From: Anaerolineales bacterium
Lineage (GTDB): Bacteria; Chloroflexota; Anaerolineae; Anaerolineales; Villigracilaceae
NCBI GenBank assembly: GCA_919902735.1
Contig: CAKKRM010000252.1
Coordinates: 1 to 59,424 of the forward strand
Direction of reading: 5' to 3'
DNA: 59,424 nt
Shown here: piece after piece, positions 5,125 to 35,789 of the stretch
Numbering within the stretch: position 1 is the first letter of the stretch
How the letters are laid out: each line of letters starts with the position of its first letter
Position numbers and translations under genes: made by a program
The notes under the pieces: model-generated
What the model saw: only the letters and a program-made list of their open reading frames with translations
Databases searched by the model: none
Told to the model about the DNA's origin: nothing

Positions 5125-5125
5125 A

Positions 5126-5899
5126 TCAGCCCTCCACAATTTCTTCTTCGACAACGGGCAGGTAATACACGCGCGGACCGGTTCCCAAATTCTCACGCAG
5201 GCGATAGGATGGGTGTTTCTTCAATAGTTGGCTGACGTTTGAGTCGGGATCGTTGAGATCGCCGAACATGCGGGCTCCCGTCGGGCAGGTCACTACACAG
5301 GCGGGGGTTGCTTCCGCATCCACGCCGGGGACGAGGCCCACAGACATGCCGCGGTCGATGCGGTTATAGCAGAAGGAGCATTTCTCAGGCACGCCGCGCG
5401 GACGCCGTTCCACTTCGGGTTCGCCCCATTCGGGCACGGCGGGGTTCCCGCCTGTGAAGGCTTTCCAGTTGAAGACGCGCGCGTCGTACGGACAGGCCAC
5501 CATGCAATAGCGGCAGCCAATGCACTTGTCATAATCCATCATCACGATGCCGTCTTCACGGTAGTAGGATGCGCCCACCGGGCAGACTTCCACACATGGC
5601 GCATGTTCGCACTGCATACAGGGCCGTGGCAGGTACACCTTTTTACCGTTGACTTCGCCCGCATCCAAAACCTTATTCCAATCCAGTTCGGGGTTGATGT
5701 CATTGTTCGCATGGCAGGCCAGGTTGCATTGTCCACAGCCTGTGCATTTGGACTGGTCAATCACCATGGCCCATTGATGCTTACCCTTTGTGCCATCGGA
5801 AGCCCCCACCTTTGTGAGCGCATTGGCTCCCGCGGCAACCGCAAGCCCAACCGCAGAGAGTTTGATGAAATCACGGCGGTTGAAATTATTTTTCGTCAT
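5126..5899 (-). CDS. Tat-exported 4x[4Fe-4S] ferredoxin-like subunit (NrfC/HybA/DmsB type)
   Basis: 257 residues. A twin-arginine signal (NRRDFIK at about residues 7-13, then a hydrophobic stretch to about residue 27) indicates export of the folded protein. Sixteen cysteines form four cluster motifs: CTGCGQC...C, CMQC...CVEVC, CIGCRYC...C and CSFC...C...C. In this family the clusters relay electrons between a catalytic or heme subunit and the NrfD-type membrane protein. The start overlaps the end of the octaheme cytochrome gene by 14 bases, and the NrfD gene follows after one base, so translation of all three is probably coupled. Confidence 0.9.
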   Translation of the reverse strand: MTKNNFNRRDFIKLSAVGLAVAAGANALTKVGASDGTKGKHQWAMVIDQSKCTGCGQCNLACHANNDINPELDWNKVLDAGEVNGKKVYLPRPCMQCEHAPCVEVCPVGASYYREDGIVMMDYDKCIGCRYCMVACPYDARVFNWKAFTGGNPAVPEWGEPEVERRPRGVPEKCSFCYNRIDRGMSVGLVPGVDAEATPACVVTCPTGARMFGDLNDPDSNVSQLLKKHPSYRLRENLGTGPRVYYLPVVEEEIVEG

Positions 5900-6875
5900 G
5901 GTGCGCCTCCTCGGATTTCTTCACGGCAGTTCGATACCAGCGTTCCAGGTTTGGCGCCAGCAACATGCCTGCCGCCAGGCCGATAAGGCTGGCAATGCCG
6001 GCATAACCCACCGGGGAAACAGGTTTCGGTTCAGGCGTAATGGATGCCATTTCAAGGGCGGGTGTCGGCTCGCTCACAGGTTCGGCTGTTGCAATATTAC
6101 TGGCAACAGCTTCTGTGATGGCCGCTTCCCCATCCGCGTGCATTTGCTCGGAATGGCAATCGGCACAGGATTTTACACTGGCCTTGAAGGAGTGGTCCGC
6201 GATCCTGTGAATATCCGGGTTCCTGCTTTCAAGATGCTCAAGATGGCAGTCGATACAGGTAACGCCCTGTTTGCTATGCGTCGAATACGGGAAGTTCATG
6301 CTGGCTTCCTCATGGCAGCTAATGCACAACCGCGAAGCGTCGGTGGAAGTTGGATTCTTTAAATTGACCGTGATTTTCAAAGAGGCATTGTGTGGGTCGT
6401 GGCAGGTGGAACAATCCATGCCCTTTTGAAAATGAACGCTGCCCTCCCAACTCTCCAAAACAAAACGAGCATCGGTGTGACACATGCCGCAGGTCTTGGA
6501 AGTGGTATCCACACTCATAGTGGTCTTCGGATGATCCCCGCCTTCATCGATGTGGCAGGCCGCGCAGGTCACACCGTCTTCCTGCCAGGTTCCTGTGGCT
6601 TCGTCAAACCCGGTTACATGGCAGGCCAGGCAGGCCGCAGGCTTGCCCTGATCCGTCCATGCGTTTACAAAGATCGGATCCTGTTTGGCATTTCCATGCG
6701 GGCCGTTCTGCCAGCTCATTTGCGAATCTTCATGGCACTTGGCGCACGAATCGCTTCCCTGCGCGGCAACAGGCGGCGGAGTCGCGTCCTGGGCAGAAAC
6801 AGCAACAAGGGTCGCGCCTGCAAAAAGCAGGGCAAACATCAGAGCGATCAAAGCCTTTTCAAAACGTGAAAACAT
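5886..6875 (-). CDS. Octaheme cytochrome c with C-terminal membrane anchor
   Basis: 329 residues. An N-terminal signal peptide ends near VSAQ. Eight CxxCH sites follow: CAKCH, CLACH, CAACH, CGMCH, CSTCH, CISCH, CIDCH and CADCH. Then comes a Pro/Glu-rich linker and one C-terminal membrane helix (about residues 286-305), so the heme domain should sit outside the membrane. ATG 6875 gives better spacing (7 bases) to AAGGAG than ATG 6881, which nearly touches it; both are in frame. First of three overlapping genes with the Fe-S and NrfD subunits. No molybdopterin subunit is nearby, so this may be a pure electron-transfer complex rather than a reductase. Confidence 0.87.
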   Translation of the reverse strand: MFSRFEKALIALMFALLFAGATLVAVSAQDATPPPVAAQGSDSCAKCHEDSQMSWQNGPHGNAKQDPIFVNAWTDQGKPAACLACHVTGFDEATGTWQEDGVTCAACHIDEGGDHPKTTMSVDTTSKTCGMCHTDARFVLESWEGSVHFQKGMDCSTCHDPHNASLKITVNLKNPTSTDASRLCISCHEEASMNFPYSTHSKQGVTCIDCHLEHLESRNPDIHRIADHSFKASVKSCADCHSEQMHADGEAAITEAVASNIATAEPVSEPTPALEMASITPEPKPVSPVGYAGIASLIGLAAGMLLAPNLERWYRTAVKKSEEAHHDEK

Positions 6876-13513: not shown

Positions 13514-14728
13514 TTATTTCCCTTTTTTGAGTTTCAAGCTGAGGGTACGCAGGAAGCGTCTGATCAAGACGAGGAGGCGTGACCCGAAGGGAGGGGGCGT
13601 TTGATGAAGTTCCTCTTCGGGCCAGGGATTCACATCCAGCATTTTTCGCATGGTGTATTTCCAGAGCAATGTGGCTGTGGCAAGCATGGGGGCGGCGATA
13701 ACGACGCCTAGAATTCCAAGCAGGTTGGCGGCGACGATGGCCGCGACCAGCACCGCAGCGGGGTGGACTTTGAGCGCGTCGGAAAGGATGCGCGGGGAGA
13801 CGATGTTGTCGAAGACCTGGTCTATCACCAGCGCAATGAGGAGCACCAGAAGGGTGTAGTAGAAGGGCGAAAGGCCGAGTAGTTTGTAAACTTGAAAATA
13901 GGAGACGAGCACGAGGATGACCCAGTTGATGGCGGGGCCAATGTATGGAACAAAACGCGCAAGCCCCGCGAGGAATGCGAGGCCGATGGCGTAATGCACC
14001 CCGAGGACGCTCAATACGATGGAGTAAACAATGACGGTGAGGAAGAAGATGATGACTTGTCCGCGCAGGAATGCGTTCCAGATGCGCCCGAGTTCGCGGG
14101 TGAGGCGGGCCAGGTCCTGGGCGTAGCCGGGGACGTCTACAATGATGATGCGGTCTCGCAGGCCGCCGCTTTCGGCAAGCACAAAGTAGGAGACGAGGAT
14201 GACGAATAACGTCCAGCCGAGGAAGTTGGCGGCGCTGCCTGCCACGGTTCCAAGCAATGTGCCGGTGCGGCTTAATAAGGGTTGCACCATGCCGAGTACC
14301 TGACTGCTCAGGTCTCTCAAGTCGAGCGCGCTAAAATCCAGTTTGAAGGGGCCAAATTGATAGACTTTCCCTGAAATATTTGCGATGAGTTCAGGGAGGG
14401 TTTTGATCGCATCCTGCAGGATGATGACCAGGCTTTGGATCTGTTGCACCAGCCCCACGCCGCCGAGTGTGAGCAGGCTCAGAAAAATAATGATGATGAC
14501 AAGGTAGATGATGCCAACGGATGCGTTCCAGGAGAAGCGCAGTTTCCTTTGGAAAAAATCGGCGATGGGGTGAAATAGATAGGAAAAGACAAGCGCAATC
14601 AGCAGGGGGCCGATGATGAACTGGAATTTGACGAGCAATGCGCCAATGATGACGATAATGGTGAGGGCGACGACCAGTTTGGTATTTGTGCCCCAGGAGG
14701 GGGAGGCGGGATTTTGTGGCTGTGTCAT
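13514..14728 (-). CDS. AI-2E family transporter
   Basis: 404 residues. The layout fits PF01594: two N-terminal helices, a central hydrophilic region (about residues 110-185), then closely spaced helices with GLARFVPYIGPAINW and the late segment VLVAAIVAANLLGILGVVIAAP. Family members export or exchange small molecules (autoinducer-2, or sodium/proton exchange in some); the substrate here is unknown. The cytoplasmic C-terminus is basic and Pro-rich. Probably co-transcribed with the 60-residue gene that follows. Confidence 0.9.
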   Translation of the reverse strand: MTQPQNPASPSWGTNTKLVVALTIIVIIGALLVKFQFIIGPLLIALVFSYLFHPIADFFQRKLRFSWNASVGIIYLVIIIIFLSLLTLGGVGLVQQIQSLVIILQDAIKTLPELIANISGKVYQFGPFKLDFSALDLRDLSSQVLGMVQPLLSRTGTLLGTVAGSAANFLGWTLFVILVSYFVLAESGGLRDRIIIVDVPGYAQDLARLTRELGRIWNAFLRGQVIIFFLTVIVYSIVLSVLGVHYAIGLAFLAGLARFVPYIGPAINWVILVLVSYFQVYKLLGLSPFYYTLLVLLIALVIDQVFDNIVSPRILSDALKVHPAAVLVAAIVAANLLGILGVVIAAPMLATATLLWKYTMRKMLDVNPWPEEELHQTPPPFGSRLLVLIRRFLRTLSLKLKKGK

Positions 14729-24832: not shown

Positions 24833-25447
24833 ATGAACACGAGAGCATTCATCTTCCTGCTGCTAACTGCAATTCTGCTAGCCGCCTGCGCGCCCGCCAC
24901 GCCCATCGAACCAACTCCCGATGTTCTGGCGATCCGCACTTCCGCGGCCAACACCGTGGTGGCAGAATTTACGTTGACCGCCGCCGCCTTCACACCCACA
25001 CCCCTGCCGCCCACACAGACGCCCACACCGGAAACTCCAACCGCAACCCCCACCGTCGCCTTCGCAACAGACCCAACCCAAATTGCGCTTGGCACACCAG
25101 GCCTGCTTTGTGATGACCTCTCCTTTGATCCCGCCACCGTGGATGTAACCATCCTCGACGGAACATCCATGACCCCTGGACAGGAATTTGTAAAAACCTG
25201 GAAGATCAAAAACACCGGCTCCTGCGCCTGGGGCGATGGATACACTCTCACCTTCTCTTACGGCCAAAAAATGGACGGACAGCCCGTGCCGCTTGGCACA
25301 GTTGTACAGGTTGGGCAGGAAGTGGAAATATCCGTCAACTTCAAAGCTCCCACCGCCATTGGCGAATACACAAGCGCATGGCAGATGGCCAATGCCGCAG
25401 GAGTCACATTCGGCAAAGCCGTCTTTGTCAAAATCCTCGTCCAGTAA
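24833..25447 (+). CDS. Lipoprotein with NBR1-type Ig-like domain (array member 5)
   Basis: 204 residues, the most compact member. Lipobox LAAC, then PATPIEPTPD and a short Thr/Pro linker. The NBR1-Ig domain (about residues 95-204) has TPGQEFVKTWKIKNTGSCAW and GEYTSAWQMANAAGVTFG. GAGAGGA ribosome site. Two bases after its stop lies the TTG start of the original queG gene, now cut by the integrative element, so in the ancestral state this gene and queG were probably one transcript. Confidence 0.85.
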   Translation: MNTRAFIFLLLTAILLAACAPATPIEPTPDVLAIRTSAANTVVAEFTLTAAAFTPTPLPPTQTPTPETPTATPTVAFATDPTQIALGTPGLLCDDLSFDPATVDVTILDGTSMTPGQEFVKTWKIKNTGSCAWGDGYTLTFSYGQKMDGQPVPLGTVVQVGQEVEISVNFKAPTAIGEYTSAWQMANAAGVTFGKAVFVKILVQ

Positions 25448-25448
25448 T

Positions 25449-25520
25449 TTGACAACGCTCACACAAGCCATCAAAGAAAAAGCGCGCCAGCTGGGATTCG
25501 TCCCAATAAATCAGATTTAA
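25449..25520 (+). pseudogene. queG: 5' remnant of queG left of the integrative element
   Basis: A short frame from TTG 25449 reads TTLTQAIKEKARQLGFV, the typical N-terminus of epoxyqueuosine reductase. It then leaves the family at the attachment core and stops at 25518-25520. The continuation, LAGVTSCEPPAHYN, appears after the matching core at 34162, so the remnant and the distal gene were one reading frame before insertion. Confidence 0.85.
25488..25503. other. Left attachment site (attL)
   Basis: CAGCTGGGATTCGTCC, matching the right site at 34147-34162 in 15 of 16 positions; 25492-25503 is the identical 12-bp core. Confidence 0.8.
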
Positions 25521-25556
25521 TCACGCCGGTATATTTGACAGTAATCTTATGACCCT

Positions 25557-25591
25557 AAACAGGGCAGACTTAACCGCTTGCCCTGTTTTTA
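25557..25591 (+). terminator. Hairpin terminator inside the element's left end
   Basis: AACAGGGCA and TGCCCTGTT arms flank an ACTTAACCGCT-type loop, followed by a T-run. Confidence 0.65.
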
Positions 25592-25666
25592 TTACAAATG
25601 GCAGATGCCCTCATTTCGTAAAGATGCTAGAATCAACTTATCAATTTCATTCAAATGGAGGTTATG

Positions 25667-26416
25667 ATGAAAAAGCAAATTGCCTTTTCCTTGATAGTGT
25701 TTTTCTTGATTGCTGGCTGTCAACCATCTGAGACCGCTATACAAACCGCGTTGGCTCAAACACAAGCCGCTTTGCCAACTGCGACCCTATTTCCACCAAC
25801 AAATACCCTACAGCCAACAAACACAACACAACCGACAAGTACCCCTACAATAACTCCTACGCAAATACCCCTTGAATTTTTCGGGGCATTAGATTTTGTA
25901 GAATCTTTGAGAAGTAACCCCGCCTCGTATAACGGAACTTTGATTAAGGCAATTGCATATTATCTTGATTTTCCAGGAACTGAGGCCGATTACTCTTTGA
26001 TTTCCGCTGATGTTAATAGCCCTCTTGGAATCAAAGTAGCAGTAGTAGATCAATTGTCAGATCAAACATCAAAACAACTGCTTAAAGGTAACGAATGGAT
26101 TTGGATATATGGAAAAATAATAGAGCCTGAGGGGGATTCTCCAAAAGTTGTTGTTTACTATGTTGAGTCAATCCCAAAATTAATCCAGCCTAAATCAAGC
26201 GGCGTTTTTAAGGTGGGGGTAGATATTGCTCCCGGCACATGGAAATCAATGAGTGATGCTACGGTTACACAAGAATGCTATTGGGCAAGGTCTGATAAAA
26301 ATGGAAATATTATAGAAAACTATTTTGGTTATGGCGGCACTACAATTTATATTGCCGAAACAGATTATGCTTTTGAAAATAAGGCTTGTGGCACTTTAGT
26401 TTATTTGGGTACATAA
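25667..26416 (+). CDS. Element-borne lipoprotein
   Basis: 249 residues. Lipobox IAGC, then a Gln/Ala helix and a Thr/Pro/Asn linker of the same style as the host NBR1-Ig lipoproteins next door. There is no NBR1-Ig domain. Middle region (about residues 75-180) is a mixed alpha/beta domain of unknown type. The C-terminal part (VGVDIAPGTWKS, CYWARS, ACGTLVYLG) resembles a small beta domain common in exported bacterial proteins. GGAGG lies five bases before ATG 25667; ATG 25664 is also possible. More AT-rich than the host array. As the only non-mobility gene at the left end it looks like cargo that alters the cell surface. Confidence 0.75.
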   Translation: MKKQIAFSLIVFFLIAGCQPSETAIQTALAQTQAALPTATLFPPTNTLQPTNTTQPTSTPTITPTQIPLEFFGALDFVESLRSNPASYNGTLIKAIAYYLDFPGTEADYSLISADVNSPLGIKVAVVDQLSDQTSKQLLKGNEWIWIYGKIIEPEGDSPKVVVYYVESIPKLIQPKSSGVFKVGVDIAPGTWKSMSDATVTQECYWARSDKNGNIIENYFGYGGTTIYIAETDYAFENKACGTLVYLGT

Positions 26417-26444
26417 TAACTTTTCATATGAGTTGTACGCAGAG

Positions 26445-26479
26445 CGGGGCAGGCTTTACGGCTTGCCCCGTTTGCTTTT
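26445..26479 (+). terminator. Hairpin terminator after the element lipoprotein
   Basis: CGGGGCA (26445-26451) and TGCCCCG (26464-26470) followed by TTTGCTTTT. Confidence 0.65.
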
Positions 26480-26512
26480 AATGCCCTTGACGGTATCTTT
26501 TTCATGCTGTAA

Positions 26513-26546
26513 AATACTTGCGTATATATACATTTACGTAAGTATT
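26513..26546. promoter_or_regulatory. Operator-like inverted repeat before the tyrosine recombinase
   Basis: AATACTTGCGTA (26513-26524) and TACGTAAGTATT (26535-26546) pair at 11 of 12 positions around TATATACATT. Overlaps the likely promoter, so it could be a repressor site or a recombinase-binding site. Confidence 0.5.
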
Positions 26547-26569
26547 GACCAATGAAAGGATACCAAGCC

Positions 26570-27505
26570 ATGACAACCCAGACCGCAATTATTACCCAGG
26601 CCCAGAGCCCAAGCCTTGACTTGAAAGCGATAGATCGCGCCGACTTGCAACCCACTACCAAAGCAAAATATAAGCGCGAGATCGCAAACCTTATGCAGGC
26701 AGGAATAAACCCGCTTGACCTTGACGGGTTGACGGCATACGCGGACGGCTTGAAGTCTTCACGCAAATCTTTTCTTAAGTCGGCATTGCGGCTTATGTCG
26801 GCAGACTTTGAACAAAACATAAAAGGGCGGGCAACCCCTGAGAATATCGCCCAAATACAGGCGGGCGTTTATCGGCTTGAAGCGATGCGCGGCGCGGTAA
26901 AGGTAAAAGCCCATAAAGGGACAAAGGCGCATACTTGGCTAAGTCAAAAGCAGGTTACAGAGATAACCAAACTTTGCAAAGATGACCTTGAAGGGCGGCG
27001 CGATTGGATTGTATTGGGCTTGTTGCTTGGCGCGGGCTTGCGGCGGGATGAATTAGCAACCTTGACCTTTGACGCATTGAAACAGCAACCCATGAAAGGC
27101 GGTAAAGTCCGCGATGTGCTACAAGTCAAAGGCAAGGGCGCAAAGGATAGGGTTATCCCCATAAAGCCCATTCTTGCAGAGCATTTGCACGCATGGAAGG
27201 AAACCGTAAAGGGCGGGCTGGTTGTGCGTTCTTTGGGCATGAGGAAGAAATTAGGCGGCAGTATGTCGGCAGTTGCGATTTTTCAGCTTGTCCGCAAGTA
27301 TGGCGGGGTGATAGGATTGCCCGAACTTGCCCCGCATGATTTAAGGCGTACTTACGCCCAATTGGGGTATGAGGCGGGTGTACCGATTACACAGATAAGC
27401 GTTCTATTAGGTCATTCAAGCGTTGCCACTACTCAAAAGTATTTGAACTTGAATCTTGACCTTGAAACAACGGCAAGCGATTTTATTCCCCTATCAGGTG
27501 ATTAG
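26570..27505 (+). CDS. Tyrosine recombinase / integrase
   Basis: 311 residues, typical length. An N-terminal SAM-like core-binding domain (to about residue 110) is followed by the catalytic domain with all expected residues: Arg158 (GAGLRRDEL), Lys189 (KGKGAKDR), His256-x-x-Arg259 (HDLRRTY), His282 (LLGHSS) and Tyr291 (TQKYLNL). Strand-exchange enzyme of the phage integrase / XerC-D class. The in-frame ATG at 26552 is possible, but AAAGGA lies between it and 26570. Because the element's own boundary fits the serine recombinase, this enzyme may instead resolve multimers, invert DNA or drive a second mobility mode. Confidence 0.9.
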   Translation: MTTQTAIITQAQSPSLDLKAIDRADLQPTTKAKYKREIANLMQAGINPLDLDGLTAYADGLKSSRKSFLKSALRLMSADFEQNIKGRATPENIAQIQAGVYRLEAMRGAVKVKAHKGTKAHTWLSQKQVTEITKLCKDDLEGRRDWIVLGLLLGAGLRRDELATLTFDALKQQPMKGGKVRDVLQVKGKGAKDRVIPIKPILAEHLHAWKETVKGGLVVRSLGMRKKLGGSMSAVAIFQLVRKYGGVIGLPELAPHDLRRTYAQLGYEAGVPITQISVLLGHSSVATTQKYLNLNLDLETTASDFIPLSGD

Positions 27506-27530
27506 GCCGTAAAATTCCGAACGCCTGTGC

Positions 27531-27536
27531 TATAAT
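27531..27536 (+). promoter_or_regulatory. -10 box before candidate small RNA
   Basis: TATAAT, 26 bases after the tyrosine recombinase stop. No good -35 hexamer is visible. Confidence 0.4.
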
Positions 27537-27542
27537 GCCGGC

Positions 27543-27666
27543 AATGAAATAAAAACCGCCCCGCGATGCTGATAACATCCGAGGCGACGGTCTGCCGATA
27601 GGTGCGGCGTGACAAAGCATAGTATACCAAACTTGCGCGCCCGTCCTATCTTGGACGGGCTTTTTG
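27543..27666 (+). ncRNA. Candidate structured RNA 1 of the element
   Basis: About 125 bases between a TATAAT box and a strong hairpin terminator (arms 27639-27646 and 27653-27660, then TTTTT). Within it ACCGCC...GATG pairs with CATC...GGCGACGGT and GCCG pairs with CGGC. No open frame with a ribosome site. Could be a regulatory RNA or a terminating leader of the next gene, which starts 16 bases later. Confidence 0.4.
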
Positions 27667-27681
27667 TTTGGAGTACGCAAG

Positions 27682-28326
27682 ATGACGCAACAGGTGATAA
27701 TTTATGATGGGCGATTAAGAGCAAGTAAAGAGGAGTTGATTGTATTTTTGGATAACAAGGTTAATGAAGTGCGCTTACCTTCACCTCAGGAATTAAATCG
27801 TGATGACTATTTTCCACCTGATACCCATTTACTTATCGATCATTTCATTCAAAAACACAGCGAGGAAATTGCTACCCAAGAGCAAATCGAAAACACAATC
27901 AACAGCGTTATGGGTAAACCCCATCCGGGCAAAGTATTCTTGCACACCCACTGGTATGGTGATATTCAAATTACTTGGGGATGGATGTATTTGCAAGAAG
28001 AGGGTGGATTGGTAGAATTTAACGACGGACAGATTGAATTGTATCCTTCAAAAAAAAGTAAGAAACCGTTTACGAATGTTATTATTAAGAGTGAATTACC
28101 GGAAAGACGTTCCTATTGGGAATGGATGGTAAAACGCTTGAAAAATCGTTTCAAAGAATTGCGTAAGGGGGGGCCAAAAGCAACGCCTCGTAACGAAAAA
28201 ATCAGGATAGTGAGAGAATGGAGGGAAAAGCAAGGTAAGATACTTAAGGAAAATTTTTGTTCAAACCACGCGATAAGTATTTCCACTCTTCGGAATTGGG
28301 AAAAAGAATTAAAGGGGTTGGTCTAA
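27682..28326 (+). CDS. Hypothetical protein with C-terminal helix-turn-helix-like region
   Basis: 214 residues; not recognised. The first 140 residues form a mixed, mostly acidic domain. The last 75 are basic and end in a segment (SISTLRNWEKELKGL) that looks like the recognition helix region of Hin/transposase-type HTH domains, preceded by GGPKATPRNEKIRIVREW. A DNA-binding role within the element is likely. ATG 27682 is taken rather than 27664, which lies in the terminator. Ends before a strong hairpin. Confidence 0.6.
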   Translation: MTQQVIIYDGRLRASKEELIVFLDNKVNEVRLPSPQELNRDDYFPPDTHLLIDHFIQKHSEEIATQEQIENTINSVMGKPHPGKVFLHTHWYGDIQITWGWMYLQEEGGLVEFNDGQIELYPSKKSKKPFTNVIIKSELPERRSYWEWMVKRLKNRFKELRKGGPKATPRNEKIRIVREWREKQGKILKENFCSNHAISISTLRNWEKELKGLV

Positions 28327-28354
28327 GTTAGTAACAGTTATTACGCCTTAGATA

Positions 28355-28395
28355 AATTATCCTGCTATTGAATCGGATAGCAGGATAATTTTTTA
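28355..28395 (+). terminator. Strong hairpin terminator
   Basis: 14-bp arms 28355-28368 and 28377-28390, followed by TTTTT. Separates the HTH-like gene from the next operon. Confidence 0.75.
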
Positions 28396-28409
28396 AGGAC
28401 GATACGACC

Positions 28410-28625
28410 ATGACACGATTACTAATTTATCTTTCGGAAGAAGAAAAAACAGCATTACAAGCGATGGCCGAGAGGGAAATGCGCGGATTGAGAGAACAGA
28501 CACGCCTTATTTTGAGACAAGAATTAGAACGATGCGGGCTATTGCAAGCCGGCCCGGCTCGTGCTGATACCTTGCCAAAGCAAGTAAATAAGATCAAACA
28601 AGAGGGAATGAATGTTACAGGATAA
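28410..28625 (+). CDS. Small ribbon-helix-helix-like regulator
   Basis: 71 residues. Begins with a short beta-type stretch (MTRLLIYLSEE) and two helices (EEKTALQAMAEREMRG, LREQTRLILRQELERC), the order expected of Arc/CopG-type ribbon-helix-helix DNA-binding proteins. First gene of a tightly packed operon that runs to 31535; its end overlaps the next start by 14 bases. Likely a copy-control or operon repressor of the element. Confidence 0.6.
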   Translation: MTRLLIYLSEEEKTALQAMAEREMRGLREQTRLILRQELERCGLLQAGPARADTLPKQVNKIKQEGMNVTG

Positions 28626-28794
28626 CATCCAGACCGCCCCCGCCTTGCAACAAGTTGACCTTATGGCAATTGACGCCCTCTTTAGGCGCATTGCCGAACG
28701 TGGGCGCAAGATTAGAACCCAAGCGCAACCCCAAGCGGTTGACGAAAAGACAAAAGAACCCAAAGAGGTGACGAATGAAAAGCAATCAAAATAA
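28612..28794 (+). CDS. Small hypothetical protein
   Basis: 60 residues, basic and Gln/Lys-rich, with one predicted helix (LMAIDALFRRIAERGRKI). Its start overlaps the previous gene and its end overlaps the next. Function unknown; existence rests on position in a chain of overlapping genes. Confidence 0.5.
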   Translation: MLQDNIQTAPALQQVDLMAIDALFRRIAERGRKIRTQAQPQAVDEKTKEPKEVTNEKQSK

Positions 28795-28930
28795 GCAAGT
28801 CGTTTATGTCAACGTATGCCAGTATTGCGGTAGTGAAAAAGAGTTGAGACCGATAAAAACGCGGTGGGGTACTTATCATATTTGCCGCGATTGTGAGATC
28901 AAACAAGAAAAGGCGCAAGGCGGTAAGTAA
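28775..28930 (+). CDS. 51-residue zinc-finger-like protein
   Basis: ATG 28775 follows AGAGGTG. Two CxxC pairs, VCQYCGSE and ICRDCEIK, 19 residues apart, make a treble-clef or zinc-ribbon-like knuckle, otherwise Lys-rich. It overlaps the preceding gene by 20 bases and ends four bases before the Toprim-protein start. Likely a small nucleic-acid-binding protein. Confidence 0.6.
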   Translation: MKSNQNKQVVYVNVCQYCGSEKELRPIKTRWGTYHICRDCEIKQEKAQGGK

Positions 28931-28934
28931 TTCT

Positions 28935-30581
28935 ATGGGCAATCTTGTTGACGTGGCGGTTATGTTAGGCGGGGTATTGGTTGCCCCAGAGCATACCGTC
29001 ATGCAAAGATTAGCAGAGCGGCGAATCACGCCCGAAGTGATAACCGTTTTTGATATTCAACCGTTTAACAATGGTTGGAAGTATCCCACGCCAAGCGGCG
29101 GTTATCGTTGGAAAAATGCCGACAGTAAAGCCGACCCAAAATATAAATGGCTTGATGACGGCAAGCCTGAGACCGATAATTTTTATCATGCCCAAGACAT
29201 TGCACACGCAATTTATAACGCCGGCGGTGCTTGCTGGTTTGTATCAGGTGAGGCAGATGTATGGGCTATGCAGTCGGCAGGCGTAACCCATGTAATGAGC
29301 GGGTACACAGAGGCGCAAGTATCCACAGAACTGCCCGCATATCTTGAAAGCATGGGCGTAACCGTTTTGTATATCGCTCCAGACCTTGACCAAGCGGGCG
29401 CAAGATGGGCGCGGCTTATCGCCCAAGCATTGCAGGAAAGCAGTATAGAACTTGATGCGCGGCAATTGCCTGATACTTTGGGCGATAAAGGCGATATTGG
29501 GAAAGCATGGGCAGGCTATACAAAGCGTCAACCGTTTGAAAGGTGGTTACTTGGTTTGTCACGGTTTACCCCCGAACCAGAACCCAAGACCGAACTCCCC
29601 GCCCTGATTAATGACGCGGCAGTTATCCCCATAGGATACCGCCAATTAATTGCCGATATTTTACTGGCAACCGAATATCAAAGCGATGGATTTACTAAAA
29701 AAAATGTTCGTTGTCCATTCCATGATGACGGTAAACATGCGGACGCGAGTCTACACAAAGAAAAAGGGCTTTACTGCCATGTATGCGGCAGGTGGTTTAC
29801 ATGGAATGAAACAGGTATCAAGATCGGCGCGGGCAGTTTGCAAGAATGGCGATTAACGAATACTTATGCCCTTTCAACCGAACTAAGAGAGGCGTTAATA
29901 AGAGATAACAAAACAAGTCTTTCCCGCTTGCTTGATGCGGTTGCCCTCAAAGATTGGCGGGCAGGTAAAGAGTTTACCCGCAAGGATGCGGTTACTGCTT
30001 GCAATGATTGGCTATCATCTAAAACAATTCGCAATGCTACTAATCAATTGAATACTTATTGCCCTTTTCTTCTCTCTTTTTTCATTACAACAAGTATGAA
30101 GGAAAAAAAGGGCATTAAGTCACGCCCGCAAATGGTTTACAGCCTGCCCAAACTTTCAGAACTGGCAAACAAATTACAGGTAAGGCAATATCACTTTGAC
30201 GAAATGCCCCCGCATAAGATCAAACGGGCGGCAGATTATCGGGCAGAGGTTTACGCGGCATTGCCAAGAAGAAAAGCAGGCAAATACGCCCGCAAAACAT
30301 TAACCGAACGCATAGGGGTAAGCACAAGAACGGGGCAGAGTTATGACAAGCGGGCTAATCTACTTGTGACGCCAAACATAGAGAAGCAAGAATTGACGCC
30401 CGCTGAAATAGCGGGCTTGCCTGAAAAGGTATTCAAAAATCGTAAATATAACGTATGGCTAGAGGATGAAAAAGGCAAAAGACACAAGCCTGATAAAGAG
30501 AGCATAAAACGTATTACAGATAATGGCGGCGGGAAAGTTTACCGCGTAACGCAATTAGCGAATACTTATCAAGCAGGATAA
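28935..30581 (+). CDS. Toprim and zinc-finger replication-type protein (primase-like, inverted domain order)
   Basis: 548 residues. A Toprim-like domain lies at about residues 95-170, with FVSGEADVWAMQSAG (Glu106) and YIAPDLDQAG (Asp150, Asp152). A CHC2-like zinc finger follows at 260-284 (CPFH, then CHVC). In bacterial DnaG and phage primases the zinc finger precedes Toprim, so the order is reversed. The C-terminal third (about 395-548) is basic and contains a likely winged-helix or HTH (KTLTERIGVSTRTGQSYDKR). Probably binds or primes DNA for element replication. ATG 28935 is preferred over an in-frame GTG at 28893 inside the previous gene. No helicase motifs seen. Confidence 0.65.
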   Translation: MGNLVDVAVMLGGVLVAPEHTVMQRLAERRITPEVITVFDIQPFNNGWKYPTPSGGYRWKNADSKADPKYKWLDDGKPETDNFYHAQDIAHAIYNAGGACWFVSGEADVWAMQSAGVTHVMSGYTEAQVSTELPAYLESMGVTVLYIAPDLDQAGARWARLIAQALQESSIELDARQLPDTLGDKGDIGKAWAGYTKRQPFERWLLGLSRFTPEPEPKTELPALINDAAVIPIGYRQLIADILLATEYQSDGFTKKNVRCPFHDDGKHADASLHKEKGLYCHVCGRWFTWNETGIKIGAGSLQEWRLTNTYALSTELREALIRDNKTSLSRLLDAVALKDWRAGKEFTRKDAVTACNDWLSSKTIRNATNQLNTYCPFLLSFFITTSMKEKKGIKSRPQMVYSLPKLSELANKLQVRQYHFDEMPPHKIKRAADYRAEVYAALPRRKAGKYARKTLTERIGVSTRTGQSYDKRANLLVTPNIEKQELTPAEIAGLPEKVFKNRKYNVWLEDEKGKRHKPDKESIKRITDNGGGKVYRVTQLANTYQAG

Positions 30582-30609
30582 GCAAGGCAATCATAACCAG
30601 AGGTAACAA

Positions 30610-30987
30610 ATGAAATGTAGATCAAAGACAACAAGCGGGCAAGCCTGCCAAGCCCAGGCAATCAAAGGCAGTAAGTTTTGTTTTACCCATGACCCCGCAA
30701 GCGGCGCGGCAAGGGCAAAGGCGCGCAAGATCGGCGGGCAACGTAACCGAACGCCCCACGCGGGCAACCCTGAGACCATGCCCGCAAAAGTGCGAACTAT
30801 TGAAGATGTCTTAGCCGTTCTTGATTACGCCCTTGCCGAGTCAATGCCCCTTGAAAATTCAATACAGCGCGGGCGGTTGCTGGTTGCAATATGCGGCGCG
30901 TTTATTGACGCTATCAAAACGGGCGAACTTGAACGCCGACTCATGGCAATTGAATCCGCGTTGAAAGCAAGAGAGGTTACGCAATGA
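30610..30987 (+). CDS. Small Cys/His metal-knuckle protein
   Basis: 125 residues. The N-terminus carries CRSKTTSGQACQAQAIKG...FCFTH, a C...C...C...H pattern common in small phage- and element-encoded proteins. A Gly/Ala/Arg-rich segment (ARKIGGQRNRTPHAG) and a C-terminal helical region follow. Probably zinc binding; cellular role unknown. AGAGGTAAC precedes ATG 30610. Overlaps the next gene by four bases. Confidence 0.65.
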   Translation: MKCRSKTTSGQACQAQAIKGSKFCFTHDPASGAARAKARKIGGQRNRTPHAGNPETMPAKVRTIEDVLAVLDYALAESMPLENSIQRGRLLVAICGAFIDAIKTGELERRLMAIESALKAREVTQ

Positions 30988-31535
30988 ACATAAACGCAAT
31001 TCAAAAGCATTATGACAAGTTGACTATCAAAGAACGCTTTGCCTTATTGGTTGCGGCGGGCGCGCGCAAGGATGACCAAGACCGTGACGCATTATTAAGA
31101 TCCGCCCCGCGTAAGGTTTTTTCATTTCCCAATACTTACGGGTTATCAGATGCATTTGAGTGGCTTGCCATGTGGCACGTTATGAATCAATTGGGACTTT
31201 GTGCGAGTGCTTATTACATAACCATAGTGGTAGAGGATGAAAGCGAACTTACAGGCGTAAAGATTGCGGGCAGGCCTTTTAATTTTGAGGATGCGCTGGA
31301 TTTTCTCTTTATGCGAATTATGACCAATTGCGAAGCATGGCGCGCAATCTGTAAAGAATACGGAATAGACCCTGAAAAGATTTTAGAGGGCTTGCCCTAT
31401 ATTGAAATGATAGAACTTTCCGAATTAACCGCAAGAGCGGCATACCTTGACGCCCCGCTTGAATTGCCCGAATTGCAAGAGACCGTAAACGGGTATAGAG
31501 AAGTGATTGAAACAAAACGCAAGCAATGGGAGTAA
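30984..31535 (+). CDS. Hypothetical element protein
   Basis: 183 residues, mostly helical and acidic, no membrane segment; family not recognised. Starts inside the stop of the preceding gene (ATGA overlap), so translation is coupled. The segment TIKERFALLVAAGARKDDQDRDALLRSAPRKVF near the start is shared in style with phage-like genes, but no function can be given. Last gene of the operon beginning at 28410. Confidence 0.6.
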   Translation: MNINAIQKHYDKLTIKERFALLVAAGARKDDQDRDALLRSAPRKVFSFPNTYGLSDAFEWLAMWHVMNQLGLCASAYYITIVVEDESELTGVKIAGRPFNFEDALDFLFMRIMTNCEAWRAICKEYGIDPEKILEGLPYIEMIELSELTARAAYLDAPLELPELQETVNGYREVIETKRKQWE

Positions 31536-31651
31536 ATGCCCCTGTATAACTCGCAGACACCTCAGGATGGGCGCAATGGCGGCAGTCGGCATAGTTTGAC
31601 CCGAACCTTTACAACCGAATAATGCAAGCGTGTACCACGTTAGGCGGCGGG

Positions 31652-31657
31652 TATAAT
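31652..31657 (+). promoter_or_regulatory. -10 box of the excisionase-like gene
   Basis: TATAAT 22 bases before ATG 31679, with ATGGAGTG as ribosome site between. Confidence 0.45.
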
Positions 31658-31678
31658 TCTATTTATGGAGTGTGACAC

Positions 31679-31888
31679 ATGGCAACAAATGGCGAATGGT
31701 TGACCGTGAGAGACGCGGCAAAACTAAGCGGGTATGACCCAGAACATATTAGACGGCTTGTCCGTGAGGATAAAATCAAGGCGCGTAAATTTTCAATCGT
31801 TTGGATGGTTGACCGCAAATCACTCTTAGCATACTTGGATAAAGCGCAAGCAATGGGGGAAAAGCGCGGGCGCAAGCCTGAGAAGTGA
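31679..31888 (+). CDS. Excisionase-like / MerR-type helix-turn-helix protein
   Basis: 69 residues. WLTVRDAAKLSGYDPEHIRRLVREDKIKARK is the standard HTH_17 pattern of recombination directionality factors and small MerR-like regulators, with a wing ending in WMVDRKSLLAYL. A basic tail (KRGRKPEK) follows. It is placed upstream of the serine recombinase gene and separately promoted, which fits an excision factor or a controller of integrase expression. Confidence 0.75.
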   Translation: MATNGEWLTVRDAAKLSGYDPEHIRRLVREDKIKARKFSIVWMVDRKSLLAYLDKAQAMGEKRGRKPEK

Positions 31889-32193
31889 CCGTAACAAATC
31901 CCCCGAACAGTAGTATAATTCTTTTGTAGTAAGTCACTACAATTCAACCCGTTAAATCGGGCGAGTAAAGTGTTACTAGCACAATACACGCCCTAACCCC
32001 CACGCCAGAGAGCGGCGTAAGGGCTGAGACAGATTCTATCATGTCTCACCTTTTAACCGCTTGCGGCATTGCCCAAGCGGTTTTTGTTTTTGGCGCGGGG
32101 ACAGTCACGAAAGGAGTCTTATGACCAATACCCCGCGAATACTTCCCTATTGATGAATCGAACCTGTCTAACCAAAAACAAAAGGAGTCAACC
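31889..32193. other. Non-coding stretch holding a candidate structured RNA and a leader ORF
   Basis: No gene of normal size. Holds TATAAT at 31914-31919, the candidate RNA at 31925-32091, and a ten-codon frame (32121-32153) with an AAAGGAG ribosome site that could be a leader peptide. Confidence 0.5.
31925..32091 (+). ncRNA. Candidate structured RNA 2 of the element (five stem-loops)
   Basis: Starts just after TATAAT (31914-31919) and ends at a terminator hairpin (arms 32055-32063 and 32074-32082, then TTTTTGTTTTT). In order: GTAGT/ACTAC, CCCG/CGGG, a two-part stem GCCCT...CGCC with GGCG...AGGGC, and TGAGACA/TGTCTCA, then the terminator. No open frame with a ribosome site. A regulatory RNA or attenuating leader for the serine recombinase region. 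Confidence 0.5.
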
Positions 32194-32418
32194 ATGTATC
32201 ACCAAGTTGTTTTCAATTTCGATGATGACGACAACGATCCCCGTTTTAGTATCCGCGCTGAAGTAAGCGGGGACGCGCCAGAAGATACCAACATAGTATT
32301 GATTGACCCCACGCTTGCAGAGAGGCAAGGAATAACAACCGACAGCCAGGGTTTTCCCAAATCCGAATCTCTTGAAGCGTGGCATAGGAAACATAATCCG
32401 CAACTGTTTACCGAATAA
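32194..32418 (+). CDS. Small acidic hypothetical protein
   Basis: 74 residues, Asp-rich in the first 20, no membrane segment; family not recognised. AAAGGAG precedes ATG 32194. The tail (SLEAWHRKHNPQLF) is a probable helix. Lies between the structured RNA and the serine recombinase, on the same strand. Confidence 0.55.
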   Translation: MYHQVVFNFDDDDNDPRFSIRAEVSGDAPEDTNIVLIDPTLAERQGITTDSQGFPKSESLEAWHRKHNPQLFTE

Positions 32419-32510
32419 GTAACTCATATTTTTACGCCCTGCCCGTCATTGGTAACTATGGCGGGCAGTTGTAAGAACGTGAGACTTAACAAACGAAAGG
32501 ATAAAATACA

Positions 32511-34211
32511 ATGAGCAAAAAGGCAGTAATTTATGTTCGGACTTCGTCCGAACGTCAAGGCGAAAAAGTAAGCCCCGTAGAACAAGAGGCGGATTGCCGA
32601 AAATACGCGGCAGAGAATGATTTGACCGTTATCAATGTTTACAAGGATATAGAGCGTTACCGCGTAAAGAATAAACTGGTTGAACCCTCAGGTACGCGTC
32701 CAGACCGCCCCGCCCTGCTTGCCATGTTAAGAGACGCGGGGCAAGCACAATTTGACGTTATCCTTGCATGGCGTGAAGATCGCTTATATCGCGGGATGCG
32801 TGCAATGCTTACGGTATTAGAGACCATTCAGGAAAATAAGATAACCATCATGCTTGCACGTGAAACCTTTGACGCCAAAATGGCCCCACTTAAGGCCTGG
32901 GTTGCACAAATGGAATTAGACGGCATGAAAGAACGTATGACAATGGGGGTAAAAGCCCGCTTGCGCGCGGGCAAAGCAAATGCAGGGCGTGACCGCTATG
33001 GTTATCGGCGGAATGGGGAAGTAATCGAAGTAGTAGAAGATGAAGCAAATTGGGTAAGGCAAATTTTCGCATGGTATAACGAGCATATCCCACTTTTAGA
33101 AATACGACAGCGATTAATCAATGCCGCTGTTCCACAAAAGGGTGGTAATGCTTTTCGTAAAACCGAATGGTCAAAAAATGTTATTCAATTCATATTAGGG
33201 GCAGCAAAAGAGTACGCCTTTGGAGTAAAAACACAATCGAGGGGTGGTGAAACATTCACCATGCCTGTTGAATCCATTATAGATATGACAACCTACGAGA
33301 AGTTTTTACAGGTAAGAGAGGCAAACATAAAACACCCCGCCCGCCATATAAAACAAAATTACCTTATCGGCGGTTTGCTCTATTGCGCTTGTGATAGAAA
33401 ATGGGGAGCGCGAACCGTACCCGCCATGCGGCGCAATCAAGAAGGGCAATGGGTAAAAAAAACGGAATATGGACGGTACTATTGCAGGCAAGAGCATGAA
33501 GAGCATATATCGCCTGATTGCCCGCGTACCATAGCAAGCGGGAAAGCCGATTCAGTTGCTTGGGAAAAAGTTTGTGAGGCTATCAATAAGCCTGAAATTC
33601 TTTTAACCCAAGCTAAAAAGATGGTTGCCGAATTGCAGGATAACGCAAATACATTAAACGACGAACAAGACCGAATACAAAAAGAACTTGACACCCTCAC
33701 TATGGAGCGGCAATGGATAATCACCCAAGCCCGCAAAGGCGCGATAACTGAAAACGATATGGATTATCAATTAGGCGTAATTGCTTTACAAGAATTAAGC
33801 CTAAAGCGCGAATATGCAGATATTGGGCAAGCGGTAAATATCTATGCTTTGGGTGATTGGGAAACCAGAGTCGTAGAATATTTAGCCGACTTGCGAGCGG
33901 GGCTTGACTCATTAAATGTCATACCCAAAAACGATGAAGAGCGGCTAGAGATATTTGAGTTCAAAAAGCAGGTTGTAAATACTTTGGTCAAGCGGGTTAC
34001 AATAGACTGCAACCGCGAATTGCAGGTAGAGATTAGTATTAATCTGCTAAACTTATTCCATGATGACCCGCCCCCAAGCGATGACCCCAACAAAAGAGGA
34101 AGCCATACCCAAAGGCTTAAAAGAACTAATAAAGATAAAATCAAAACAGTTGGGATTCGTCCTGGCTGGCGTTACTTCTTGCGAGCCGCCCGCGCATTAC
34201 AACATCTTTGA
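32511..34211 (+). CDS. Large serine recombinase (site-specific integrase)
   Basis: 566 residues. N-terminal resolvase domain with YVRTSSERQ; Ser12 is the likely nucleophile. Then comes a recombinase domain (about 170-275), a zinc-ribbon (CACDRKW...YYC...DC, about 290-345) and a coiled coil (about 365-440), the full layout of large serine integrases. AACGAAAGGA ribosome site. Transcribed toward the right end and crossing the attachment core at 34151-34162, so its last 17 or so residues are read from host queG DNA in another frame. In an excised circle the end would instead come from the element's left end. Probable integrase for this element. Confidence 0.93.
   Translation: MSKKAVIYVRTSSERQGEKVSPVEQEADCRKYAAENDLTVINVYKDIERYRVKNKLVEPSGTRPDRPALLAMLRDAGQAQFDVILAWREDRLYRGMRAMLTVLETIQENKITIMLARETFDAKMAPLKAWVAQMELDGMKERMTMGVKARLRAGKANAGRDRYGYRRNGEVIEVVEDEANWVRQIFAWYNEHIPLLEIRQRLINAAVPQKGGNAFRKTEWSKNVIQFILGAAKEYAFGVKTQSRGGETFTMPVESIIDMTTYEKFLQVREANIKHPARHIKQNYLIGGLLYCACDRKWGARTVPAMRRNQEGQWVKKTEYGRYYCRQEHEEHISPDCPRTIASGKADSVAWEKVCEAINKPEILLTQAKKMVAELQDNANTLNDEQDRIQKELDTLTMERQWIITQARKGAITENDMDYQLGVIALQELSLKREYADIGQAVNIYALGDWETRVVEYLADLRAGLDSLNVIPKNDEERLEIFEFKKQVVNTLVKRVTIDCNRELQVEISINLLNLFHDDPPPSDDPNKRGSHTQRLKRTNKDKIKTVGIRPGWRYFLRAARALQHL
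34147..34162. other. Right attachment site (attR)
   Basis: CAGTTGGGATTCGTCC; identical to attL over the 12-bp core at 34151-34162. Lies within both the serine recombinase and queG reading frames. Confidence 0.8.
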
Positions 34212-34344
34212 AGCCTGGCTCGATCAAAACAAGCACGGCACGATGCAATACCTCGCCGAAGAACGCAGCCGCATCCGCCGCGCAGACCCCAAACAAATTC
34301 TCCCCGAATGTAGCTCCATCCTCGTCCTTGCCCTGCCTTATGCA

Positions 34345-34369
34345 AATTCAGAATTCAGAATTCAGAATT
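34345..34369. repeat. Heptamer tandem repeat at the queG frameshift
   Basis: ATTCAGA at 34346-34352, 34353-34359 and 34360-34366, with partial units on both sides (3.6 copies). Confidence 0.9.
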
Positions 34370-35183
34370 TCAAATCGCGGCTTATGCCCTCGGCGATGAT
34401 TATCACGACATCATCCCCCCGCGCCTGCAACAGATTGTCCAGTTCATCGAAGAACAGGTCGGGCATCCAATCCCCAACCGTTATTACACAGACACCGGCC
34501 CCATCCTCGAACGCGAACTCGCGCAACGCGCAGGGCTGGGCTGGGTCGGCAAAAATTCCATGCTCATCAACCCGCGCGCAGGCTCCACATTTTTCCTCGC
34601 CGAAATTCTGCTCGGCATCCAACTCGAACCCGACGACCCCTTCCCCACAGACCACTGCGGCGCCTGCACGCGCTGTATCACCGCCTGCCCCACTCAATGC
34701 ATTCTCCCAAACCGCAGCATAGACGCGCGCCGCTGCATCTCCTACCTTACCATCGAACTTAAAGATGACATCCCCGAAAACCTGCGCCCGCAAATAGGAA
34801 ATTGGATTTTCGGCTGCGACATCTGCCAGCAAGCCTGCCCATGGAATCGATTCTCCCTCCCGGCAGATTCTGCCTTCGAGCCGAAAATCCCGCTTCCTGT
34901 CTTAACCTCAGACCTGCTCCTGTCATCCGTTGAGTTTAATCAACGCTTCAAAAAAAGCCCCATCAAACGCGCCAAGCGACGCGGCTATCTGCGAAATCTG
35001 GCAGTCGCAATCGGAAACAACGAAAATGAGAACGAGAATGACATCCCCATTTTGGAAAAAGCCATGCAAGACAATGAACCCACGATTCGCGAACATGCAA
35101 AATGGGCGCAAGAAAAAAGGACTGCGAAAAAAGGGACTGCGGACTTCAGTCCGCATTTATTAGCGCAAACTGAAATCCGCAAT

Positions 35184-35789
35184 CTGAAAAAACTTCTCAT
35201 CGCAACCAACAACAAAGGCAAAGTAAAAGAACTGCAAGACCTGCTGAAAGATACAGGCATCGAACTCGTCACGCCAGCGGATATCAACTTAATTCTCGAG
35301 GTCGAAGAGGATGGCAAAAATTACTCCGAGAACGCGGGCAAAAAAGCCATCGCCTTCGCCGCTGCCAGCGGGCTGGTTTCCCTTGCCGACGACTCCGGTC
35401 TCGAAGTGGACGCGCTTGGCGGCGCGCCCGGACTTTATTCCGCGAGGTACGCCCCTCACGGAGAGAAAGAGGGGGGTGACGCAGACCGCCGCGCCTTTCT
35501 ATTGCAGAATTTACAGGATAAGCCGCGTCCGTGGAAGGCGCATTTCCATGCGACGATTGCCATTGCAACGCCCTCCGCTGAAGTGGAATTTGCGGAGGGT
35601 AATTGCTTCGGCGAGATCATCCCCGAAGAACGCGGCAACAACGGCTTCGGCTACGACCCGGTCTTTCTCTTTCCCGAATTGAATCAAACCATGGCCGAGT
35701 TGGACATGGCCCGTAAAAACCGTCTCAGCCACCGCGCGCTGGCGGTGATGAACGCAATGCCTATTTTAAAGAAACTGTTTGGGGTGTAG
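35184..35789 (+). CDS. rdgB: XTP/dITP pyrophosphatase (RdgB/HAM1), fused in frame to queG
   Basis: About 201 residues from the likely start codon CTG 35184, which replaces the ATG expected at KKLLIATNNKGKVKEL. Hydrolyses non-canonical purine triphosphates such as XTP and ITP to prevent their use in DNA. Motifs: ATNNKGK (substrate loop), ADDSGLEVDALGGAPGLYSARYAP, GNNGFGYDPVF and AELDMARKNRLSHRALA. The frame is open upstream through queG, with a 22-residue linker that contains a palindrome (TGCGGACTTCAGTCCGCA). Its 3' end overlaps the convergent hydrolase gene by 29 bases. Confidence 0.9.
   Translation: MKKLLIATNNKGKVKELQDLLKDTGIELVTPADINLILEVEEDGKNYSENAGKKAIAFAAASGLVSLADDSGLEVDALGGAPGLYSARYAPHGEKEGGDADRRAFLLQNLQDKPRPWKAHFHATIAIATPSAEVEFAEGNCFGEIIPEERGNNGFGYDPVFLFPELNQTMAELDMARKNRLSHRALAVMNAMPILKKLFGV

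Follow-up and report, generated by a model that had tools for sequence, protein, structure and literature searches.

The stretch analysed here, 59,424 bp of contig CAKKRM010000252.1 (C252) from an Anaerolineales bacterium of the phylum Chloroflexota (the window; its genome is G000 in our sample), carries an integrative element at the 5' end of the tRNA-modification gene queG. Upstream lies a host lipoprotein gene, followed by a native queG start that is now a stub, its frame entering the element and meeting a stop at 25520. Two identical copies of a 12-bp core, TGGGATTCGTCC, bound the element (Table 1), and joining the flanks at the core gives LTTLTQAIKEKARQLGFVLAGVTSCEPP, in frame across the core from the TTG at 25449. 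The element encodes a tyrosine recombinase, a primase-like protein, an excisionase-like helix-turn-helix (HTH) protein and a large serine recombinase (LSR), with a structured RNA upstream of the latter. The open reading frame (ORF) of the LSR ends 49 bp past the right-hand core, inside queG, and in another frame the right end of the element reads ATG and onward in the queG frame (MTPTKEEAIPKGLKELIKIKSKQLGF).

We identified the empty site by searching 57 genomes of the genus with the C-terminal part of QueG, which matched in 53 (36 of the first 37 and 17 of the other 20). The core position is readable in 52 of these 53 loci, G063 starting downstream of it. In 44 of the 53, the core is uninterrupted and the lipoprotein gene ends 35-71 bp before it. 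These include the nearest relative, G065 (QueG fragment 91% identical), whose uninterrupted locus has the identical core and agrees with the joined G000 flanks at 892 of 1001 aligned nucleotides. Because of this alignment and the 44 uninterrupted loci, the junction is more than chance. The direct-repeat core and the empty site in relatives together mark a site-specific integrative element, as the initial annotation had proposed from the identical core and the in-frame flanks; its expectation that relatives without the element carry an intact queG is borne out by the same loci. An LSR or its remnant lies directly before the core in five of the 53 loci, whole in G000 and G020 and reduced to 109 residues in G026, 24 in G035 and 33 in G064. 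Three loci were left without a call: G014 (contig edge, element-type end), G032 (contig edge) and G070 (native-type start, no lipoprotein gene). No LSR was found at queG in 11 genomes of the order outside the genus.

The LSR has a Resolvase domain (PF00239, 69.6 bits) and a Recombinase domain (PF07508, 23.0 bits, cut-off 21.1). By eye it also has an active-site motif with the catalytic serine, R10-T-S12 and E-D-R-L-Y-R, when set beside the Bxb1 and phiC31 active-site residues in the relevant passages of PMC12884075. Its ORF overlaps the hybrid queG by up to 152 nt in a different frame, and its tail differs between the integrated form (…GIRPNKSDLITPVYLTVIL) and the circle (…GIRPGWRYFLRAARALQHL), with 566 aa either way and the last 15 residues exchanged. 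The joined element ends (attP) and the joined flanks (attB) have dyads on the same axis, between GGGATT and CGTCC. By simple letter shuffles and at arm lengths chosen afterwards, the attP dyad agrees at 15 of 25 positions (best of 250 axes, p 0.00035) and the attB dyad at 10 of 14 (best of 277 axes, p 0.0003). Moreover, an LSR or a C-terminal remnant of one adjoins the queG core in all five carriers.

The other four carriers share the element-type queG end (MTETQTIPKGLKERIKEKSRQLGF and the like), while the native end is of the KARQLGF type and uses other codons. A QueG-like N-terminus started by ATG ([L]K..IK.K[SA][KR]QLGF) is in frame in five of five carriers. From these starts, QueG is full length in G020 (349 aa), G026 (up to 376 aa), G035 (344 aa) and G064 (362 aa), in each case with the QueG_DUF1730 and Fe-S (Fer4_16) domains. 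The hybrid start is kept in G026 and G035 although only short stretches of the LSR are still recognisable there, so the replaced start has been kept after LSR decay. At the level of reading frames, the element resembles the gene-restoring islands of the dusA and prfC type, which bring an in-frame replacement coding end, and the hybrid QueG is probably active. In G026 (L073), the native stub ends at the core edge and 14.4 kb separate it from the LSR remnant; by eye, the approximately 14 kb at 200-14270 of L073 hold sugar-catabolism and branched-chain ATP-binding cassette (ABC) transporter genes, a possible domesticated island.

We consider it highly probable that this is an integrative element moved by its own LSR, integrating at the 5' end of queG with a replacement start. 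In such a mechanism, attP of the circle, in which the right end is joined to the left end, would recombine with attB inside the queG 5' end. The crossover would fall within TGGGATTCGTCC, probably centred on the dinucleotide TC. Integration would displace the native queG start to the left end of the element and fuse the element's ATG and N-terminus in frame to the remainder of the gene, leaving the host with a hybrid QueG. The replacement 5' end of queG would at the same time be the 3' end of the LSR gene, and the same event would swap the last 15 LSR residues. The HTH protein is the likely excision factor, and the excised circle is probably replicated with the help of the primase-like protein.

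Several findings weigh against this interpretation. In G000, QueG can be read in one frame from the element start only as far as an AATTCAG tract (34345-34369), approximately 180-210 bp after the core, and the C-terminal part lies in another frame that runs on into RdgB; excision alone would therefore not restore queG in this genome. The tract could be a slippage-prone loop or an assembly error, and the loop in relatives holds other low-complexity sequence or repeats (CTCATCC in G065), with queG intact in G065 and G020. The Zn-ribbon usual in LSRs (PF13408) has no match in the window LSR and is matched in that of G012, and cysteines 292, 294, 325 and 337 of the window LSR fit a ribbon by eye. 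The dyads are weaker at other arm lengths (attP 7 of 14, p 0.078, rank 4; attB 13 of 25, p 0.012, rank 2), and the choice of arm length after the fact counts in the same direction. The G020 contig starts inside the element, whose tyrosine recombinase may thus be present there as well. Finally, allowing up to two mismatches, the G000 assembly has no match to the attP junction of an excised circle and none to an empty attB.

The tyrosine recombinase is the other candidate for integration at queG, with the LSR as a passenger or acting at another step. Tyrosine integrases are the agents of the prfC islands. They are likewise the known agents at dusA in the passages on those islands in PMC4482086, and the window protein has a Phage_integrase domain. 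At one locus with the same RNA, L146 (G080), a tyrosine integrase follows in place of an LSR. However, it is the LSR, not the tyrosine gene, that adjoins the core in all five carriers or remnants, and the L005 element, with a related LSR, has no match to the window tyrosine recombinase at E 1e-4 in 21.6 kb. The nearest NCBIfam families of this protein are Xer-like, with every Xer model below its cut-off, which would also fit dimer resolution. We regard integration by the tyrosine recombinase as very unlikely; the protein is a genuine second recombinase, perhaps a dimer resolvase or an integrase of older date. The LSR is favoured as the likely integrase by its position, the dyad symmetry and the remnants, and the earlier description of a serine-integrase element is to that extent upheld, short of proof over the tyrosine recombinase.

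It is more improbable still that the insertion is a knock-out, with the in-frame element end a coincidence and QueG lost in carriers. The broken downstream frame of G000 speaks for this, but the ATG-started N-terminus is in frame in every carrier, and QueG is full length in the four others, even though the LSR has decayed in two of these. We also considered an artefact of assembly or binning at the junction and rejected it as having almost no probability: G000 is a 4.26-Mb metagenome-assembled genome in 356 contigs, but in an independent record (VGOX01000012.1; L004 of G020) queG is occupied at the same position by an LSR 83% identical to that of the window, and a remnant persists in G026, a genome in one contig. 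The initial picture of a queG split by the element, with a restorable target, needs amending in two respects. The insertion does lie in the queG 5' end, but the gene is not simply interrupted, the element supplying an in-frame ATG and N-terminus; and the joined flanks are in frame at the core, but with the further loss of frame downstream, excision would be insufficient. Both the in-frame queG start at the right end and the later frame loss had been missed.

Table 1. Positions of the element, its genes and its flanking features in the window.
Feature	Position	Strand	Remarks
Upstream host gene, lipoprotein with immunoglobulin-like domain	24833..25447	+	PF16158, 93.9 bits; conserved queG neighbour in the genus
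Native queG 5' end with TTG start, displaced and reduced to a stub	25449..25503	+	same sequence type in relatives' empty sites
attL core TGGGATTCGTCC	25492..25503	+	
Integrated element	25504..34162	+	8,659 bp; bounded by the two cores; absent from the empty site of G065
Possible cargo: lipoprotein with Rv1352/Rv1906c domain	25655..26416	+	NF053833, 56.7 bits, cut-off 25
Tyrosine recombinase (XerC/XerA-like)	26552..27505	+	PF00589, 69.1 bits, above Pfam cut-off
Candidate structured transcript, intrinsic terminator at 27639-27660	27540..27672	+	z -3.02; 3 of 200 shuffles fold as well
220-aa ORF	27664..28326	+	no Pfam, PHROG or NCBIfam match
Primase/Toprim-like protein, 562 aa	28893..30581	+	weak Toprim_2 and primase matches
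Small conserved element protein, 125 aa	30610..30987	+	79% identical in the G012 element, 59% in L005; family matches below cut-off
183-aa ORF	30984..31535	+	34% identical in L005; no family match (Pfam, PHROG, NCBIfam)
Excisionase-like HTH protein, possible directionality factor	31679..31888	+	PF12728, 39.6 bits; PHROG excisionase matches, E 1e-4
Structured RNA (model R1)	31958..32088	+	lies upstream of the LSR; contains hairpins, the terminal one with a T-run
Small ORF between RNA and LSR, 74 aa	32194..32418	+	conserved in G020 and L005, 65-68% identity
LSR, 566 aa, likely integrase	32511..34211	+	PF00239 and PF07508; 3' end crosses attR into queG
Element-borne replacement queG 5' end (ATG 34060/34063/34081)	34060..34162	+	overlaps the LSR ORF in another frame
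attR core TGGGATTCGTCC	34151..34162	+	
queG continuation	34163..34722	+	in frame from element start to AATTCAG tract, then out of frame; stop 34720-34722
QueG C-terminal part and RdgB/HAM1, one ORF	34560..35789	+	PF13484, PF01725; TIGR00276, 203 bits; frame open from 34314

The remaining gene content largely agrees with the initial annotation, which had listed both recombinases, a primase-like protein and a lipoprotein cargo gene, with no capsid or conjugation genes. Both recombinases have Pfam matches above cut-off. The lipoprotein is matched by an NCBIfam model and has no Pfam or PHROG match, and a cargo role for it is possible. The primase assignment is weak, its Toprim_2 match of 18.7 bits falling below the cut-off of 22.1; homologues occur in three other genomes of the 61 searched, and an AlphaFold model of the protein alone was unusable (mean predicted local distance difference test score 36.2). 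Among the element ORFs scanned (9 with Pfam, 10 with PHROG and 7 with NCBIfam; the 60-aa ORF at 28612-28794 left out), there are no capsid, terminase, relaxase or type IV secretion system (T4SS) families. These ORFs thus lack the relaxase or T4SS genes of an integrative and conjugative element (ICE) or mobilizable element and the capsid, terminase and packaging genes of a prophage or phage satellite, and a scan of viral contigs confirmed no viral relatives of the LSR. The promoter scan, on which nothing is built here, returned 15 sites against 14.9 expected by shuffling, and the terminator scan 16 against 11.9 (standard deviation 3.3). The candidate transcript after the tyrosine recombinase has a strong terminator hairpin, with a z of only -3.0 from a single sequence. 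Downstream of the element, QueG and RdgB/HAM1 form one ORF with no stop between them, whereas in G020 they are two separate genes.

One feature of the element shared with many relatives is the RNA upstream of the LSR. The segment 31925-32100 folds with a z of -6.75, and an alignment of 10 sequences has 23 pairs, six of them with double-sided changes. The model built from these 10 sequences gave 43 matches in 25 of the 57 genus genomes; two weak matches overlapping a stronger one on the other strand were dropped, leaving 41 loci in the alignment, which was fitted to the model and so favours it. Cells with changes on both sides number 85, against 34.5 (standard deviation 3.8) in shuffles, none of 500 being as high, and the covariation score is 0.259, against 0.092 when shuffled and 0.017-0.083 in slid versions. 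Two further counts stay within the range of the shuffles: 10 pairs have a double change, where shuffling gives 8.3 and is as high in 49 of 500 trials, and there are 24 further pair types, where it gives 22.2 and is as high in 100 of 500. The RNA is approximately 130 nt long, with homologues at L004:1509-1639, L005:9440, L093:8177-8303 and 37 further loci. An LSR follows it on the same strand in 39 of the 41 loci, at a distance of 9-425 nt (measured to the open frame or start) in all but G012, where 1.5 kb and two ORFs intervene; among these LSRs, L160 is split and L149 is cut by the contig end. The remaining two loci are L145, which ends 11 bp after the RNA, and L146, with its tyrosine integrase (PF00589). 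In a sample of the phylum, the RNA was matched in 14 of 301 genomes (six of the genus, five of the family and three beyond).

The RNA has no relevant match to a known Rfam family: between 25000 and 35000, Rfam gave only two unrelated matches below the gathering threshold (E up to 1), neither at 31958-32088. We considered it as a guide to the target, a role that is unlikely, as the RNA is near-identical in elements at queG (G000 and G020), an OB-fold gene (L005) and mvaD (G012), and this likeness at three different sites speaks against its guiding target choice. It may instead control the integrase, either as a leader switch or as a small RNA. A broader and more tentative proposal, which we think somewhat less probable than its converse, is that the serine-integrase modules of Anaerolineales include a dedicated RNA, such as a leader switch for integrase expression or recombination direction, and that swapping the LSR tail upon integration belongs to this control as well. 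A conserved RNA upstream of so many LSRs raises the testable question of how a serine integrase is kept silent or switched on.

Related LSRs are found at other gene ends. Among 28 LSR loci in genome contigs, queG adjoins the LSR in one (L004, G020) and an OB-fold gene (PF01796/PF12172, ChsH2-type) is present in 16, including L017, where that gene is 2 kb away behind a truncated LSR; in 11 of the 28, none of queG, mvaD and the OB-fold gene was found in the stretch covered. In 11 loci, the tail of the LSR ORF runs 53-92 nt into the 3' end of the OB-fold gene on the opposite strand. Many loci carry tandem LSR pairs at this 3' end (L006, L008, L010, L011, L013, L014 and others). The closest LSR at another site, that of L005, is 70-71% identical to the window LSR. 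A 21-row tree groups it as sister to the two queG LSRs (97/96), nested among the LSRs of the OB-fold site, although the distant L093 leaves the root unsure. The L005 element shares small genes, the HTH protein and the RNA with the window element yet sits at a different gene end, and the site therefore changes with the LSR. The element of G012 has a primase-like protein 78% identical to that of the window, a similar HTH protein and the RNA, but its LSR and tyrosine recombinase are different enzymes (21% and 25% identical). It lies at the 5' end of mvaD (PF22700), whose open frame overlaps the LSR by 142 nt, or 121 nt from the first ATG. Position and overlapping ORFs suggest the mvaD 5' end and the OB-fold gene 3' end as target sites. 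In the same G012 locus (L093), the LSR occupies 4989-6665 and its 3' end occurs again at 13765-14238, the other element end, as if from an earlier insertion.

Among known systems, the nearest NCBIfam equivalog models of the LSR are CcrA, CcrB and CcrC of the staphylococcal cassette chromosome (SCC), at E 8e-12 to 3e-11 and 43-44 bits. The best, 44.4 bits against a CcrC cut-off of 900 (cut-offs 700-900), is far from an SCC-type Ccr, and the SCC target is the 3' end of rlmH. A survey of LSRs grouped them by the gene disrupted and found one to three target gene clusters for 82.8-88.3% of clusters (PMC10083194). Neither queG nor epoxyqueuosine is mentioned in its main text, nor is queG in the main text of PMC12884075, and the literature searched (supplements outside the search) held no serine-integrase element at queG and no such conserved RNA. 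Closer to home in the same phylum, the Dehalococcoides ssrA islands carry a CcrB-like serine recombinase, DsiB, whose gene's 3' end overlaps the attachment site; the dsiB stop codon depends on integration, and the authors raise a functional role for this (passages on dsiB in PMC3146451). Likened by that description, the window element shares the overlapping serine integrase but has another target and replaces a protein N-terminus; the Dehalococcoides islands have a second small recombinase, DsiA.

The closest parallels in outcome come from the dusA islands, which replace the 5' coding end of dusA and restore the gene (as the island sections of PMC4482086 describe), and from IMEVchUSA3, which brings a new N-terminus and a new promoter, the promoter tested with lacZ (as given in the part of PMC8409611 on that element). 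Like these, the window element is inserted in the 5' end of a tRNA-modification gene and replaces its 5' coding end. The dusA islands, as those sections present them, have tyrosine integrases and are found in Proteobacteria at dusA, whereas the window element has a serine recombinase and lies in Chloroflexota at queG, with an integrase ORF that overlaps the replaced gene end. The SXT/R391 ICE also replaces a 5' end, that of prfC, as cited in PMC8409611, but by that citation it is conjugative and has another integrase and target. Replacement of gene 5' ends by islands is thus already known, while the queG target and the conserved RNA beside the integrase appear new. The remnant loci indicate that a replaced start can outlive its element, in which case one genus would have had the start of a housekeeping gene replaced by mobile elements on several occasions. 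Taken with the likely role of the LSR, in the window element a serine integrase probably achieves the same gene-sparing replacement of a 5' end that has been documented at dusA and prfC, where the integrases are of the tyrosine type.

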